NCBI GenBank assembly: GCA_029243145.1
Contig: JAQWSQ010000211.1
Coordinates: forward strand, 1 to 64,000
Reading direction: 5' to 3'
DNA from: Planctomycetaceae bacterium
GTDB taxonomy: Bacteria > Planctomycetota > Planctomycetia > Planctomycetales > Planctomycetaceae
Length of the DNA: 64,000 nt
Of this stretch, positions 25,969 through 59,472 are shown in pieces (position 1 is the stretch's first letter; each line of letters opens with the position of its first letter). The notes under the pieces are model-generated. The model searched no databases and had not been told where the DNA came from. It worked only from the letters and a program-made list of their open reading frames with translations. The position numbers were made by a program, and so were the translations under genes.

Positions 25969-27381
25969 TTGCCGGATGCGACCAAAACAACCCGAACGAC
26001 TGATCCACTCCAATGGGAATTGGCGGCGGAATCGATCACGGTCCGCATTCGCTGGTTTGGCTTGTGTGTGGGATATGTGTTGGTCAACTTTGCGGGACGA
26101 GAAACGAATCAACCGTACCTGAACAGCATTTTGACACTGGGCGCGATCTTCGCTCTGCTCGATTCTTGGTGGAGTGTTCGAGGTCGGGTGTTCCTGAAAG
26201 AGTGGCCGTTGCTCATTTCCGGGATGGAAGCGGTCTTCATTTCGCTGTTGTGTTATTTCGATGATGGTCTGAATAGCCCGTTTCGATTCTATTATTTTCT
26301 CTCGGTGCTCGTTTGTGCGATGCGTCATTCTGCGTGGATTACTTACTCCACGCTGTCGTTGCATGCCATCGGGTACACCGTCTTGGTTTTGAATTACGCC
26401 TCGCTCACGGGCAATCATCTCAGTTCGTTTGTACTCACACAAGTTTTTCTCATCTGGGTGACGTGGGCGAGTACGGAACTTGCCAATCTTGTGAAAACAG
26501 CCACCAAAAGACTTTCCGAATTAAACCTCGAACTCCAAAAGAATCAGGCGACGCTCGAAGAACGTATTGATGAGAGAACGCAAGAACTTCAAGAGTCACA
26601 AGCGTTTCTCGTGCAACAAGAAAAACAAGCCGCGTTCGGACTCCTTGCCGCCGGCATCGCGCATGAAGTTGGTAATCCCTTAGCAGCCATCAGTTCTCTC
26701 GTACAGTTGCTCAATCGCCGAGAGCTGGATGAAGAGACGCGAGAGAAGCTTTCTCTGGTGGACGATCAGCTCCGACGCATTCAAAGAACGCTACGCGAAC
26801 TGGTCGATTTCAGCCGTCCGGCGAATCTCGAACGACAAAAGTGCGATGTCCATGAAATGATCAATGCGGCATTGAACATTGCAAAATACTACAAACGCCG
26901 TAAAGGGAAACTCATTGAAACCCATTACGCTGAAGATCTCCCTCAATTGATGACGATCCGCGATCAATTGATTCAGGTCTTCTTGAATCTAATACTAAAT
27001 GCCTTGGAAGCCACGGAGGAAGGCACCACCTTTTCCATCACCACAGATCTCACCGAACAGCAGGAAATTCGCATTGTGTTTCAGGATGAGGGACACGGTA
27101 TCGATCCTGAGAATGTTGAAAAATTATTCAAACCGTATTTCACGACGAAAGAGACCGGAACGGGTTTGGGGTTATTTGTTTGCCAGAATATCATTTCTGA
27201 AACCTGTCATGGACGGCTCGAACTGACTGAATCGAATCCGGCAGGGACGTGTTTCACGGTTTATTTACCGGTGAATATGAAATCAATGAATGCGGAACAG
27301 GCCAACTCCCTTGAGGAATCCGCAGCCACGGATGACAATATCGACTCTCAATCCCAATCTGGTTCCTCACGATCACTATGA
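25969..27381 (+). CDS. Membrane sensor histidine kinase
   Basis: The frame is closed by a stop at 25909, and the first usable start after it is the TTG at 25969; a later internal TTG cannot be excluded. Residues 25-165 carry about five hydrophobic helices with short loops, so sensing is probably in or at the membrane. A coiled coil (180-220) leads to a HisKA domain with GIAHEVGNPLAAIS (His232), and an HATPase with NLILNALEAT, DEGHGIDPENV and TTKETGTGLGLFV. The stop overlaps the response-regulator start by 4 bases (ATGA), so the two are translationally coupled partners. Confidence 0.9.
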   Translation: MPDATKTTRTTDPLQWELAAESITVRIRWFGLCVGYVLVNFAGRETNQPYLNSILTLGAIFALLDSWWSVRGRVFLKEWPLLISGMEAVFISLLCYFDDGLNSPFRFYYFLSVLVCAMRHSAWITYSTLSLHAIGYTVLVLNYASLTGNHLSSFVLTQVFLIWVTWASTELANLVKTATKRLSELNLELQKNQATLEERIDERTQELQESQAFLVQQEKQAAFGLLAAGIAHEVGNPLAAISSLVQLLNRRELDEETREKLSLVDDQLRRIQRTLRELVDFSRPANLERQKCDVHEMINAALNIAKYYKRRKGKLIETHYAEDLPQLMTIRDQLIQVFLNLILNALEATEEGTTFSITTDLTEQQEIRIVFQDEGHGIDPENVEKLFKPYFTTKETGTGLGLFVCQNIISETCHGRLELTESNPAGTCFTVYLPVNMKSMNAEQANSLEESAATDDNIDSQSQSGSSRSL

Positions 27382-28724
27382 CACGCTCTATCCTCCTCGT
27401 CGAAGACGAAGAAATTATTCGCAAGTCGCTCTCTGAATATCTCAGTGGAGAGGGTTACTTTCTGACCTCGGCCGGAACCGTGGAAGAGGCTCTCGAACTC
27501 GCCCGCAAACAGGATTTTGATGTCGCCATTTGTGACGTCCAACTTCCCGATGGGGACGGCGTGCAACTACTCACACGCATGCGACAAATCAACTCCGGGA
27601 TGTTCGGCTTGATCATCACGGCCTATGCAACGGTCGAAAATGCGGTCGAAGCCTTCAAAGCCGGCGCGTTCGATTATCTCGTCAAACCGGTCATCTTTGA
27701 AGACCTACATAATAAACTCGAACGAATGTTCGAATACAAAAACCTGGCTCGCGAAAATATTCAACTCCGTCGCGAACTGACCGTCCGAGAAGACTTCGAT
27801 AAAATCGTGGGCTCCTCAAAAACGATCAAAGATCTGCAAACGATGATCCACAAGGTCGCCGCCACCAATTCCAACATTTTGCTCGACGGTGAGACCGGCA
27901 CCGGAAAAGAACTTGCCGCGCGTGCCGTTCATCTGGCCGGTCCTAAAAAGAACGAACGCTTCCTCGCCGCCAATTGTGGCTCGCGACCCATTGAGTTTCT
28001 GGAAACGCAACTCTTTGGTTCGGTCTCGGTCGGCGCGAATGGAGAGACCCAGGTTCAACCGGGCATCTTCCGCAATGTGGGCGAAGGGACCGTCTTTCTC
28101 GATGAGATTTCGGAACTGCCGACGGGAATCCAAGCCGAACTTCTTCGCGCCATCGAATATCAGGAAATCATTCCCGTGGGTGGCAGCGAAGCCGTCCAGG
28201 TCAAAGCGAGGATCATCGCCTCGACCACCAAAGATTTAATGCGAGAAGTGGCCGACGGACGATTCCAGGAAGACCTCTTCTATCGACTGGATGGCGTCAA
28301 AATTCGTATCCCGCCGTTACGCGAACGTTTGGATGATATCCCCGAATTGGTGGAGTTCTTCGTCTCCAAACATTCACAAGCGATGGGCAAACGAGTGAGC
28401 GCGGCTTCCTCCGAAACGGTTCGCATTCTGATGTCGGCCCAATGGAAAGGGAATGTCAGGCAACTCGACAATGCGATCGAACGTGCCGTCATGATGTGTG
28501 AAGAAGACCAGATTCAACCGAACGATCTGCCGCCCGACTTGCTCGGCGTCTCTCAACCACTTCCCGACACCGACGACCTGCGATCAGCCTTGCGACATTA
28601 CGAGCGGTTACACATTCAGCGAGTCTTACGGCAATGGCCCGATAAACGAGAAGCCGCCAAGCGTCTCAAGATGGGCCTCTCCAGTTTGTATCGGAAAATC
28701 GAAGAACTCGGCTTGGATCTTTGA
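27378..28724 (+). CDS. NtrC-family response regulator lacking the GAFTGA motif
   Basis: The 448-residue protein has a receiver domain (Asp53 in ICDVQLPDGDG, Lys103), an AAA+ domain with Walker A GETGTGKE at 171-178 and Walker B GTVFLDEI near 237-244, arginine-finger and sensor II regions (FYRLDGVKIRIPPLRERLDD, WKGNVRQLDNAIERAV), and a Fis-type helix-turn-helix at the C-terminus (KREAAKRLKMGLSSLYRKIE). Where family members have GAFTGA, which contacts sigma-54, it has LFGSVSVGANGETQVQPG. ATP use may persist, but sigma-54 activation by the normal loop is unlikely. Coupled to the histidine kinase directly upstream. Confidence 0.92.
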   Translation: MTRSILLVEDEEIIRKSLSEYLSGEGYFLTSAGTVEEALELARKQDFDVAICDVQLPDGDGVQLLTRMRQINSGMFGLIITAYATVENAVEAFKAGAFDYLVKPVIFEDLHNKLERMFEYKNLARENIQLRRELTVREDFDKIVGSSKTIKDLQTMIHKVAATNSNILLDGETGTGKELAARAVHLAGPKKNERFLAANCGSRPIEFLETQLFGSVSVGANGETQVQPGIFRNVGEGTVFLDEISELPTGIQAELLRAIEYQEIIPVGGSEAVQVKARIIASTTKDLMREVADGRFQEDLFYRLDGVKIRIPPLRERLDDIPELVEFFVSKHSQAMGKRVSAASSETVRILMSAQWKGNVRQLDNAIERAVMMCEEDQIQPNDLPPDLLGVSQPLPDTDDLRSALRHYERLHIQRVLRQWPDKREAAKRLKMGLSSLYRKIEELGLDL

Positions 28725-28746: not shown

Positions 28747-29150
28747 CACTCAACGCCCTTTTCAAGATGTCAAGATTCGGTGAATGGGGGACACACCTCG
28801 ACCGAATCTTGACCAAATGTTGAATCAAATCTTCCCGAATCTTGATTCCGAATCTTCCATACTCTTGAGCAAGTTGTTGGCTCTCATTGGTTTACGCTGA
28901 TGACCTTGTTTTAGAGAGACATCGCTTTTTCTATGGACTGATTTTCCACGTCACGCAAGATCGCCTCCTTTCTCACGTTGCAGCGGTCGTCATTCTTCAA
29001 CACGCGATTCGTTTTTTGAGCCGCTTGTGAGCATGCTCACCCCGCTTTGCGGTGAGAGCATTGCACTCAACTCTCATAAACCGGTTGTCATGACGTTCAA
29101 ATTGCCAAAGATCGAGTCGCCTGTCGGCGAACTACGAACGCTAACTCTGG
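28747..29150 (+). repeat. Dispersed intergenic repeat, copy 1 (inverted copy at 48637-49181)
   Basis: The stretch starts with CACTCAACGCCC and contains short repeats of CAAGAT and GAATCTTGA, a GGGGGACACAC block, CTTCCATACTCTTGAGCAAG, a 36-base block at 28959-28994 that is identical in the other copy, and an end block at 29087-29150 with GTTCAAATTGCC and CTAACTCTGG. The inverted copy has the same blocks in the same order. Open reading frames here do not show codon-type substitution, so it is not coding. The GGGGACAC-type core resembles REP sequences handled by IS200-like transposases, which is an inference. Confidence 0.75.
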
Positions 29151-29207
29151 TAGCGCTAGTTTGGCAAGACGAGTTTGAGAGATCAATAATGAAACGCAAA
29201 GCCGTAA

Positions 29208-29243
29208 GTCGGATTAGCCGAGCAAAGCGAGCCGTAACCCGAC
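29208..29243. repeat. Imperfect palindrome with AGCAAAGCGA centre
   Basis: GTCGGATTAGCCGAGC can pair with GCGAGCCGTAACCCGAC across an AAA loop. It sits at the edge of the dispersed repeat and resembles other palindromic repeats in the same nest. No U-run follows, so it is not a convincing terminator. Confidence 0.5.
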
Positions 29244-29491
29244 AACTCAGTTCGATGTTCATTTGCTTGTGACATCCATCGAACAATTCCTACCGAAACA
29301 GCAATCCGGGCGCTGGCGAGTCGGAAGACGCGTTTCGTAGGTCATGCTCCCGCAAGACTTCCTGTTGAGAACTCAGCCACAATAAACACGAGAAGACACG
29401 AGAAAATCCCTTTCTGATTTCTGGTGCTTCTTGTGGCCATCAAAAAGAGAACCGCGGATCACGCTGATGTCGCGGAGAAATTTCAATATGA

Positions 29492-35814: not shown

Positions 35815-36082
35815 CGATTCTTGGAGTTGGCGATTGATCGCATGAAATGCCGTAGGGCAGAATCCCGCCGCCTGCCTTCCTAATGAGATCTCTGTCACAA
35901 AAAAGAGAACCGCGGATCACGCCGATTTCACGGATGAAACTCACATGCTCACGCGAGCGAGAGTATGGCACCCGTCAACACGAGATCTGGTAGCGTGCGT
36001 TGTGCGTACGGACCGGGAGGGCGAGGCTCCCGCGGAGCCTTTTTCTTAAACCGCAGAGTTCGCTGAGAATTGACACTGTTGT

Positions 36083-36171
36083 GTGGCTGGGGCTCTTCAA
36101 AGTTTGCAAAGAAGACTGAACTCTGAATCCCCAGACAGCTTTCGCATTTCGAAACACACGCATAGCCCCAG
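36083..36171 (+). repeat. Half copy of the 202-bp element (a)
   Basis: It has GTGGCTGGGGC and CATAGCCCCAG with starts 78 bases apart, the spacing seen in the left half of the full element at 29492. The right half is absent. Confidence 0.7.
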
Positions 36172-36338
36172 GTGAAAGAAGTGAACTCACGCAGAGGCGC
36201 TGAGACGCAGAGGAAAAACAAATTGGGTAGAACCGATCGCTTGACTATCGGTGTGCCGTTGGCATCGAAAGTTGAATCGTTGTAATTCTGCCCGGTTTGC
36301 TCGCGCAAGCGTCTCGTTTGCTCATCAATTCGGGTGGC

Positions 36339-36366
36339 GGGGGCGCTCCGTGAAACGGAAGCCCCC
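36339..36366. repeat. GC-rich hairpin
   Basis: GGGGGC and TCCG pair with CGGA and GCCCCC around TGAAA. The CCCGGTGATTGTCC that follows also occurs in the terminator at 30210. No T-run follows. Confidence 0.45.
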
Positions 36367-36524
36367 GGTGATTGTCCGTAAAACATTGAACCGCAGATCA
36401 CTCGGATGATACTCACATGCTCACACCAGCGAGAGCATGGCACACGGCTTAAACCGGTAGAGTTCGCTGAGGACGCCGAGAAAAATGAGCTAATGAATGT
36501 GTTGTCGTAGGGCAACACTGTTGT

Positions 36525-36613
36525 GTGGCTGGGGCTCTTCAAAGTTTGCAAAGAAAACTGAACTCTGAATTTCCATCCAGTTTTCGTATTTCTAAACGCA
36601 AACATAGCCCCAG
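36525..36613 (+). repeat. Half copy of the 202-bp element (b)
   Basis: GTGGCTGGGGC and CATAGCCCCAG again start 78 bases apart. The interior is close to half copy a (shared CTTCAAAGTTTGCAAAGAA). Confidence 0.7.
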
Positions 36614-36756
36614 ATGAAAGAAGTTGACTCACGCAGTGGCGCGGCGGCGCAGAGATAAACAATAAGCGGCTTGGTCTGGTAGCACCGGTCCAGCGCATGA
36701 TAAAACGCCCCGTCGAAATGATGAGGCGTGTGGAGATTCAAACGAACGTGTTGCCG

Positions 36757-47970: not shown

Positions 47971-48549
47971 ATGATTAAGCTCCGCGACGAAATCGCTCGC
48001 ACTCGCTGGGGTTGTATTTGCTTTGTCGTGCTTGGAGGTCCGTTGATCATGATGCTTTTGTGCTCCGGTTGGCCTCATATTGATCACACCACCGAACAAG
48101 ATGCGAAGAACCGTTATACGGAATGGACGGGACTTCCTTGGCCACAATCGGGCAAGATCATTGGCTTTGGAGACGATCATGGTATTTTTCACCTGAGTAG
48201 TGAAGGAGATTTTTTCCTTGTCTTTGAAGTTGATGACGAAGCACTCGAAGAGATTCTTAAGAGACAACCCGAGTCGCCAAGTCCTGAAGAGTGGTTATTT
48301 TCTGATTGGCAATCGGGTCCGGTGCCGGGAGTAATTGGCTCCCATCGCCGGTTCTCGACACTCGCGACTTTTTCGACGCATGCCTATAGCTCTGTGAACG
48401 AACAAGATATTTCGGAAGCTTTCAACAGCGAAGAGATTTTCTACAGTGCATCCGAACGATGCTGCGAAGGTCTCGCCTGGCATAACGGGACGTTAATTAT
48501 TGTCGTTCCAAGTGAGAATCGCGTTTGGGTTTGCGACTGGGACTATTGA
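47971..48549 (+). CDS. Single-pass membrane protein of unknown function
   Basis: I use the ATG at 47971, 13 bases after the ligase stop and behind AAGGGG, which gives 192 residues. The upstream frame overlapping the ligase lacks support. One hydrophobic helix (CICFVVLGGPLIMMLLCSGW) near residues 15-35 is followed by a soluble domain with FHLSSEGDFFLVFEVDDEAL and a C-terminal TLIIVVPSENRVWVCDWDY. I do not recognise the family. It would face the periplasm if the N-terminus is cytoplasmic. Confidence 0.65.
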   Translation: MIKLRDEIARTRWGCICFVVLGGPLIMMLLCSGWPHIDHTTEQDAKNRYTEWTGLPWPQSGKIIGFGDDHGIFHLSSEGDFFLVFEVDDEALEEILKRQPESPSPEEWLFSDWQSGPVPGVIGSHRRFSTLATFSTHAYSSVNEQDISEAFNSEEIFYSASERCCEGLAWHNGTLIIVVPSENRVWVCDWDY

Positions 48550-48589
48550 GTGAGCAAGTCCATCACTGCTCAATCGTATTCAGTAAAAA

Positions 48590-48611
48590 GCTGGGACTCG
48601 TCCCAGCCTAC
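48590..48611. repeat. Lone GTAGG-hairpin arm
   Basis: Read on the minus strand it is GTAGG followed by the palindrome CTGGGACGAGTCCCAG. It has the same design as the arms of the elements at 30275 and 59068, but no partner arm was found nearby. Confidence 0.55.
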
Positions 48612-48636
48612 GAAACTGGATTGACGCAAAGCCGTA

Positions 48637-49181
48637 CCAGAGTTAGCGTTCGTGATTCGCCGACAGGCGATTCTATCTTTGACAATTTGAACGTCATTAC
48701 AACTCGCAGACCCCCGCGGCTTGCGCCGCAGGGCTATCAGAAAACGCGCCTCTAACAACATAGCCCATAGCCCCACTGCGCAAGCAGTTGGGGCCGGTTC
48801 AAATGTCATTGCGTGTCGAAGGTCATCTGTACGAGCCCGCGGAGCTTGCGATCCTCGGCTATGCCTCTTGTGCCGGGCCATAGCCATTGTGCAAGCACAA
48901 CGGCTGGGTTCGAGCGCCATAGATTGTTCAACAATGACGACCGCTGCAACGTGAGAAAGGAGGCGATCTCGCGTGACGTAGAAGGTACGTCCACAGAAAA
49001 AGCGGCATCTCTCCAAATCGAACTGATCCGCGCAAACCGATGAGAGTCAACAACTTGCTCAAGAGTATGGAAGATGCCGGGCCAAGGGTATGGAACAGTA
49101 TCCGTCAAGAATCTTCAAGAGTATGACCAGGTGTGTCCCCGAATCTTGACATCTTGACATCTTGAAACGGGTGTTGAGTGT
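48637..49181 (-). repeat. Dispersed intergenic repeat, copy 2 (inverse of 28747-29150)
   Basis: It contains, in reverse order and orientation, the blocks of copy 1: CCAGAGTTAGCG to AACGTCATT (48637-48697), a 36-base identical block inside 48933-48969, CTTGCTCAAGAGTATGGAAG, GTGTGTCCCC and repeats of CATCTTGA, ending in GTTGAGTG. Between the first and second blocks there are about 235 bases of hairpin-rich sequence against about 95 in copy 1. A 148-residue minus-strand frame here is not conserved as protein. Confidence 0.75.
48711..48906. repeat. Cluster of hairpins with GCAAGC/GCTTGC loops
   Basis: Several short palindromes follow each other: CCGCGGCTTGCGCCGC, GCCCCACTGC paired with GCAGTTGGGGC, GCCCGCGGAGCTTGCG, and AGCCATTGTGC paired with GCACAACGGCT. 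Stems differ while the loop sequence stays almost the same. No T-runs. Confidence 0.5.
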
Positions 49182-49263: not shown

Positions 49264-50265
49264 ATGACTGAATCATTGAAAACATTAATCATCGGCGGCG
49301 GGTCTATCGGCGAACGACACCTGCGCTGCTTCCAACAGACGGGACGAACTGATGTCCTACTCTGTGAGATCAATGACCAGTTACGACAAACGCTTAAAGA
49401 TCGCTACCAACTCGAACATGTGTTTAGCGATCTGTCAGAAGCCATCAATCAAGATCCCGATCTCGCCGTCATCTGCACGCCGGCTCATCTGCATATTCCC
49501 ATCGCGCTCCAGCTTTCCAAACAGGGCATTGATTTGTTGATCGAAAAACCGGTCAGCACATCATTGGACGGTCTTACTAAACTGATTGATCTCGTCGAAC
49601 AGAATTCACTGATGACGGGTGTCGCCTATGTGCATCGATCCAATCCCGTCCTGGAGAGCATGCGACATGCTATTCGGGAAAACCAACTCGGCAAACCGGT
49701 GCAAATCAATTGTGTCTCGGGGCAACACTTTCCGTACTACCGACCCGCGTATCGAGACATCTATTACACACAACACTCCACCGGAGGCGGTGCCGTCCAG
49801 GATGCATTGACCCATCTCATCAATCTGGGTGAATGGTTTGTCGGACCGGTCACGAGTCTGGTTGCGGATGCCGAGCACTGTGTCCTCGCAGGAGTCGAAG
49901 TCGAAGACAGCGTGAATGTGATGGCCCGACATGGACAAGTGATGGCATCGTACACGCTCAATCAGCACCAAGCCGCCAATGAAACGGTTGTGTCGGTGAT
50001 CTGCGAAAATGGGATTGCCCGCTTCACAGGACACGAGGGCCAGTGGTCGTTTATGACCGAACCGGAAACCGATTGGCAATTCGGTCAACAAATTACGTTC
50101 GAGCGCGATACACTATTCCTCAATCAAGCCCAAGCCTTTCTCGATTGTGTTCAAAATCGGACTTCGCCCCTTTGCACATTAGAAGAAGGAGTTCACACCT
50201 TGCGAGTGGCTCTGGCCATACTGGACTCCGTCGCGACACGCGAATGGAAAACGATTGACGCCTGA
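49264..50265 (+). CDS. Gfo/Idh/MocA-family oxidoreductase
   Basis: The 333-residue protein has the N-terminal dinucleotide domain (LIIGGGSIGERHLRCFQQTG), the LIEKPVS motif with the catalytic Lys (EKP), and GGGAVQDALTHLINLGEW, where the HxxD/H-type acid-base pair lies. Family members oxidise or reduce sugars and inositols with NAD(P). It is the first gene of a tight unit with the SDR (18-base gap), the symporter and the aldolase. The inverted repeat nest lies just upstream. Substrate unknown, probably a sugar acid or polyol given the operon. Confidence 0.9.
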   Translation: MTESLKTLIIGGGSIGERHLRCFQQTGRTDVLLCEINDQLRQTLKDRYQLEHVFSDLSEAINQDPDLAVICTPAHLHIPIALQLSKQGIDLLIEKPVSTSLDGLTKLIDLVEQNSLMTGVAYVHRSNPVLESMRHAIRENQLGKPVQINCVSGQHFPYYRPAYRDIYYTQHSTGGGAVQDALTHLINLGEWFVGPVTSLVADAEHCVLAGVEVEDSVNVMARHGQVMASYTLNQHQAANETVVSVICENGIARFTGHEGQWSFMTEPETDWQFGQQITFERDTLFLNQAQAFLDCVQNRTSPLCTLEEGVHTLRVALAILDSVATREWKTIDA

Positions 50266-59263: not shown

Positions 59264-59472
59264 ACAGAGATTACTCTTGGCTAACCCCTTACCATCAGAG
59301 TTGCCATTCGGAGTCATTCACCACGCCGCTCATGTGAGATTTATCTGCGACATCGGCGTGATCCGCGGTTTCATTTTCAAGATTTCTCTATCTTCTCTGC
59401 GCCGCCGCGCCGCCGCGTGAGTTCATTTTTCACTGTCGGCAATTGCAGCTATGTGAGTAAGAAACGTGTGGT
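59264..59472. repeat. Repeat-derived filler
   Basis: Near 59345-59425 the GATCCGCGGTT and CTGCGCCGCCGCGCCGCCGCG blocks are inverted relatives of the cassettes at 35895-36665. No gene is seen. Confidence 0.55.

Follow-up and report, generated by a model that had tools for sequence, protein, structure and literature searches.

The inverted repeat pair of the window (the whole stretch of 64,000 nucleotides that was analyzed, from a Planctomycetaceae bacterium) belongs to a family of dispersed, non-coding repeats that carry hairpins and are restricted to one genus; the old sites of this family have probably been homogenized by gene conversion among the copies, as judged from two short-read MAGs. 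The two window sequences, copy 1 and copy 2, are members of a family of about 50–70 copies per genome. The original prediction of an inverted pair of dispersed repeats was borne out, both copies being present in the window, mutually inverted, and aligned along three arms that are 79–89% alike: 28832–29002/48925–49095 (171 nt, 82%), 29084–29157/48630–48703 (74 nt, 89%), and 28745–28812/49115–49182 (68 nt, 79%). A 36-base block had been described as identical in both copies amid changed flanks, and the alignment confirmed this, the core being far more conserved than the flanking sequence. The left end of copy 1 lies 21 bp past the stop codon of a sigma-54 response-regulator gene (27378–28724), and copy 2 is flanked by a gene that ends at 48549 and by a GFO/IDH/MocA oxidoreductase gene that starts at 49264. 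Copy 2 is the longer of the two because of its internal linker (~230 vs. ~90 nt in copy 1). The features of both copies are collected in Table 1.

Table 1. Coordinates of the two window copies, their parts and the adjoining palindrome.
Feature	Position in the window	Strand	Sequence or basis
Copy 1	28745 to ~29200	+	Corrected bounds; sharp left end common to ~53 aligned copies; family BLAST
Left hairpin, copy 1	28769–28813	+	Stem GTCAAGATTCGGT / ACCGAATCTTGAC, loop with GGGGACACACC at 28787–28797
Degenerate 11-nt units	28801–28880	+	Type ACCGAATCTTG; sequence; inter-copy deletions of 11, 35 and 46 nt
Conserved core, copy 1	28959–28994	+	AGATCGCCTCCTTTCTCACGTTGCAGCGGTCGTCATT; 36 bases, identical in copy 2
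Hypervariable linker, copy 1	28995–29089	+	Discrete lengths elsewhere
Right block, copy 1	29098–29175	+	CAAATTGCCAAAGATCGA, TCGCC/GGCGA hairpin, CGAACGCTAACTCTGGTAG (29135–29153), GTTTGGCAAGA
Separate GTAG-type REP-like palindrome	29204–29243	+	GTAAGTCGGATTAGCC...GCCGTAACCCGAC; adjoins copy 1 on the right
Copy 2	49182 down to ~48630	-	Corrected bounds; alignment
Right-block motif, copy 2	48634–48652	-	CGAACGCTAACTCTGGTAC
Core, copy 2	48933–48968	-	Identical to the copy 1 core
GGGGACACACC of copy 2	49130–49140	-	Left hairpin of copy 2 is a different subtype

The size of the family was established in the window genome (G000, a 5.2-Mb MAG), which was compared with two congeners, G001 and G002. 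The 30-mer core gave 48 matches in G000 at ≤3 mismatches and the reversed control gave none, while 51 core matches at ≤2 mismatches were counted in the genome-wide comparison search, 66 matches were obtained by BLAST with copy 1 as the query, and the right-block 19-mer was matched 65 times. Since the core was matched 48 times against no control match, and the right block 65 times, the repeat is neither a chance similarity nor a mere pair, and the possibility of a two-copy family that had been raised beforehand was discarded.

For the alignment, 53 G000 copies were retrieved with their flanks. The element is ~430–620 bp long, and the 53 copies begin sharply at a common left boundary, TTYYYR|AACACTCAAC; the hexamer before this boundary is degenerate, with A or G always as its last base. 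The right end is fuzzy, so that only the left one is precise. A typical copy consists, from left to right, of a hairpin (10–13-bp stem, GGGGACACACC in the loop), 11-nt units, a middle part, the core, a linker and the right block. The linker has discrete but highly variable lengths among sites, mostly given as ~18 to ~310 nt, with a maximum of ~345 nt; no longer versions with a transposase between the blocks were found. The TCGCC/GGCGA hairpin of the right block sometimes holds inserts, and many copies have a short stem and a T-run past the right block. Last in a typical copy comes a REP-like repeat, which belongs to one of several unrelated kinds. At some right-block loci the left part is of another sort, with an equal plan and a different stem, CAAGAGTATG/CATACTCTTG. 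Five loci (L110, L115, L120, L123, and L124) form a second subfamily of equal plan, which lacks the core and has the left stem TCAAGAGTATG/CATACTCTTGA. The linker of copy 2 (48704–48926) is built of several REP-like palindromes, such as CCCCAACTGCTTGCGCAGTGGGG, which suggests nested insertions. Another REP-like palindrome, GCTGGGACTCGTCCCAGC (48589–48617), adjoins the right end of copy 2 and is present in G002 without a neighboring copy.

At ≤2 mismatches, 44 matches to the core were detected in G002, and none in G001 and 167 other genomes of the order; the repeat family is restricted to the genus. Conservation of the core in relatives was thus found in G002, with its 44 copies, but did not extend to the whole genus, the core being absent from G001. 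The right-block 14-mer was found 45 times in G000, 19 times in G001 and 26 times in G002, and 0–2 times in the other searched genomes of the taxonomic family. In G001 the right-block motif accompanies different repeats with hairpins of their own, and a related right-block motif locus lies directly after the gene that precedes copy 1. No match to the repeat was obtained in the viral contigs or in the plasmids searched.

The comparison of G000 with G002 carries the main finding. About 40 G002 copies were retrieved, and the orthology of their sites with those of G000 was established by matching the flanks. Approximately 23–25 G000 copies, window copy 1 included, have a G002 copy at the orthologous site, so that a shared site was demonstrated for only about half of the copies. 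The genes flanking the shared sites are 82–90% identical between the two genomes, and many of the repeat sites are older than the split of the two species. The copies at these sites behaved differently from what simple inheritance predicts, namely that orthologs are closest relatives. Their mean identity was 0.773, vs. 0.771 in permuted cross-species pairs (23 usable pairs, p = 0.35); the ortholog was the nearest neighbor in none of 46 tests, and 80 of 87 copies had their nearest neighbor in their own genome. Moreover, the majority base differs between G000 and G002 in 18 alignment columns, linker lengths differ at orthologous sites, and the maximum-likelihood tree required 7 genome-label changes vs. 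27 in shuffles, a value as low as this being reached in none of 500 shuffles. Therefore, the copies were not simply inherited. Orthologs at one site resemble each other less than paralogs within a genome do, the pattern by which concerted evolution is recognized, and the family evolves in concert, the sites persisting while their content is overwritten by within-genome variants. A chimeric MAG assembly could scramble sites, but the clustering of the copies by genome could not result from it.

The copies are also internally mosaic. In G000 the pairwise distances of the left and right thirds of the element were uncorrelated (r = -0.01), vs. r = 0.62 (sd 0.08) for random column sets of equal size, and in G002 the corresponding values were r = 0.47 and r = 0.76 (sd 0.05). 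This decoupling was also observed within the main hairpin subtype, and the linker class was unrelated to left-block similarity. Transposition of whole elements predicts one history for all of their parts; the decoupled thirds therefore indicate recombination inside the elements. Repeated re-insertion at old sites would also cluster the copies by genome, but would not by itself produce mosaics. Taken together, the alignments point to gene conversion as the main homogenizer of the copies.

Mobilization by a RAYT/REP-type system, in which a TnpA-REP (Y1) transposase would recognize the left hairpin with GGGGACAC and move the unit, the sites being re-insertion hot spots, is unlikely. Such a reading would fit the hairpin near the left end and the conserved, degenerate hexamer TTYYYR directly before it, and the search for RAYT genes that had been recommended did detect seven Y1/RAYT-like genes in G000. 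However, only one of them, an N-terminally truncated Y1_Tnp gene, abuts a copy, namely the one on contig C60 at its right end, none of the seven is flanked by paired copies, and GGGGACAC near RAYT-like genes was found only inside two ordinary copies of the family. The unit of 430–620 bp also far exceeds the length of a REP, about half of the sites are old, and the mosaic structure of the copies argues against this reading as well. No transposase tied to the family was found in these searches. The suggested relation to the REPs of IS200-like transposases held in that GTAG-type REP-like material adjoins copy 1, a palindrome that several other copies also have on their right; this palindrome is a good REP candidate, but a neighbor of copy 1 and not its body. 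The main body is not supported as a RAYT-associated REP or REPIN, for which a 20–40-bp palindrome tagged by GTAG/CGTC, or an inverted pair of these, would be expected: its left hairpin is preceded by AACACTCAAC..., and the GTAG-like REP is just a separate neighbor.

The copies occupy intergenic DNA. The left-hand gene is on the same strand as the copy for 38 of 52 G000 copies (38:14, p = 0.001) and for 24 of 33 in G002 (24:9), with genes called by a simple longest-ORF rule and with many sites common to both species, so that the two counts are not independent. The median distance from the stop codon to the left end of the copy is 65 bp in G000 and 49 bp in G002. Copies are therefore preferentially sense-oriented just downstream of genes, which suggests a role, or tolerance, in that position. 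Terminators before the left end were found in 5 of 53 flanks (1.8 expected), a weak excess that was not repeated in G002.

This sense bias would agree with a structured RNA module in many copies, either a small RNA or part of the 3'-UTR, co-read with the upstream gene, whose hairpin stabilizes the mRNA and whose right end carries a terminator-like hairpin and T-run. The left part of the element offers some support for this reading: the first 100 nt have structure z-scores of about -3.0 and -2.3 in the two species, the left stem has a mean of 10.5 bp vs. 6.5 in shuffled sequences, and its hairpin stems show compensatory variants; the T-run after short stems in many copies points in the same direction. 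By contrast, the next 130 nt, core included, gave no structure signal (z about -0.35 and -0.45), no compensatory pairs appeared in the right-block consensus fold, a consensus scan of copy 1 for intrinsic terminators was negative, and no Rfam covariance model matched at the gathering threshold, only tRNAs appearing at a relaxed one. As a whole, the RNA module is quite unlikely. A dedicated tRNA/tmRNA search was negative. A fully structured RNA is not claimed, since neither the whole-element nor the right-block consensus fold had convincing covariation, and the impressive single-sequence fold of the consensus was unsupported by the alignment. Retention of the left hairpin and of the right block may perhaps reflect an action in DNA or RNA, for instance protein binding or service as a hairpin of the 3'-UTR. 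Both the core and CGAACGCTAACTCTGGTAG are strongly conserved, which suggests putative binding sites or recombination seeds. A gene-conversion network that actively homogenizes fixed 3'-of-gene sites throughout the genome, for chromosome organization or coordinated 3'-UTR regulation, and that uses the core and the right block as dedicated sites of recombination or protein binding, is rather improbable.

Separate expansions of an ordinary non-autonomous MITE family in the two species since their split, with sites shared by chance or target preference, are very unlikely: they would explain the clustering of copies by genome and the site that is empty in G002, but with a degenerate target ~23 shared sites among ~50 copies greatly exceed what chance would give, a related right-block motif is present at the copy-1 site in G001 too, and the mosaics are left unexplained. 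Inspection of the aligned copies by eye revealed no inverted partner of the left hairpin at the right end.

Differences between the two genomes were also found at single sites. At one of them (L039), G002 is without a 952-bp stretch that holds the copy and includes other material; from this presence/absence difference it follows that sites can be gained or lost. At another (L070), the flanks are split between two G002 contigs and each has a copy next to it, the arrangement expected after a crossover between copies. Repeat-mediated rearrangement in general is plausible. Within the window, synteny with G002 breaks in repeat-rich spacers at 29.0–29.5, 30.4–30.6, and 35.9–36.7 kb. In G002, copy 1 is still with its gene, and contigs end near both flanks of copy 2, the homology on one side ending at the left end of the element. 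Recombination between the two window copies had been proposed to invert the 20 kb between them; copies of the family can recombine and others lie at synteny breakpoints, but the inversion itself was not seen, the G002 contigs ending at copy 2.

Near the copy-2 site, the contig ends at L136 and L138 belong to C93 and C35 of G002; the end of C93 resembles, by eye, a fragment of a transposase gene, which may have broken the assembly. Another dispersed repeat, AAAAAGAGAACCGCGGATCACGC..., is present at 29442–29485, 35900–35943, and 59335–59377 in direct and inverted orientation (~84% alike), and two of these three window copies are in spacers near synteny breaks. The spacer at 36073–36659, itself a synteny breakpoint vs. 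G002, contains a 145-nt direct repeat pair (86%) and a nearby 55-nt pair.

Homogenization by gene conversion would operate on sites seeded earlier. The original copies may have arrived by non-autonomous (MITE/REP-like) insertion, which we infer from the presence of one or more empty sites in the sister species. Through homologous recombination of the RecA type (RecA being our assumption for the enzyme), gene conversion among the dispersed copies would then repeatedly overwrite the old sites, whereby the whole family would evolve in concert, and occasional crossovers between copies would lead to rearrangements.

Gene conversion vs. slow transposition alone has been debated since 1988 for bacterial intergenic palindromic repeats. 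Gene conversion was raised as a question for the evolution of REPs by Higgins, McLaren and Newbury (1988, as cited in PMC2267715 and PMC3116915). Here, ~23 shared sites in two related genomes indicate a site-by-site replacement of content by within-genome variants, with persisting sites and mosaic copies, which is unusually clear evidence for concerted evolution at fixed sites. Such repeats can also break MAG contigs and drive rearrangements.

No description of the family or of its homogenization was found in the open-access literature that the search covered; the family is undescribed, but of a known kind. Intergenic repeats of the ERIC, NEMIS, and MITE types are likewise non-coding, short, dispersed and hairpin-forming, with a narrow taxonomic range. 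The present family differs from them in that neither terminal inverted repeats nor a target duplication was identified and only its left end is precise. GTAG-type REPs have been reported also in Planctomycetes (PMC3733652), and a palindrome of GTAG-like type directly adjoins copy 1 as well as several others, but the main body lacks the GTAG-plus-stem-loop anatomy, the REP being a mosaic neighbor. With REPINs (PMC3116915, PMC8049555) the family shares a within-genome repeat population and a long vertical persistence; REPINs consist of two inverted REPs spread by a RAYT, whereas this unit is asymmetric, large and recombining. The enterobacterial REP/BIME elements, with their RAYT/TnpA-REP, are also intergenic, palindromic, dispersed, often 3' of genes and mosaic-building. 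The present repeats exceed them about tenfold in length and differ in having a single sharp end, a core that is conserved but unstructured, and linkers that vary; no cognate RAYT was found for them, and their homogenization at shared sites is shown by the comparison of orthologs.
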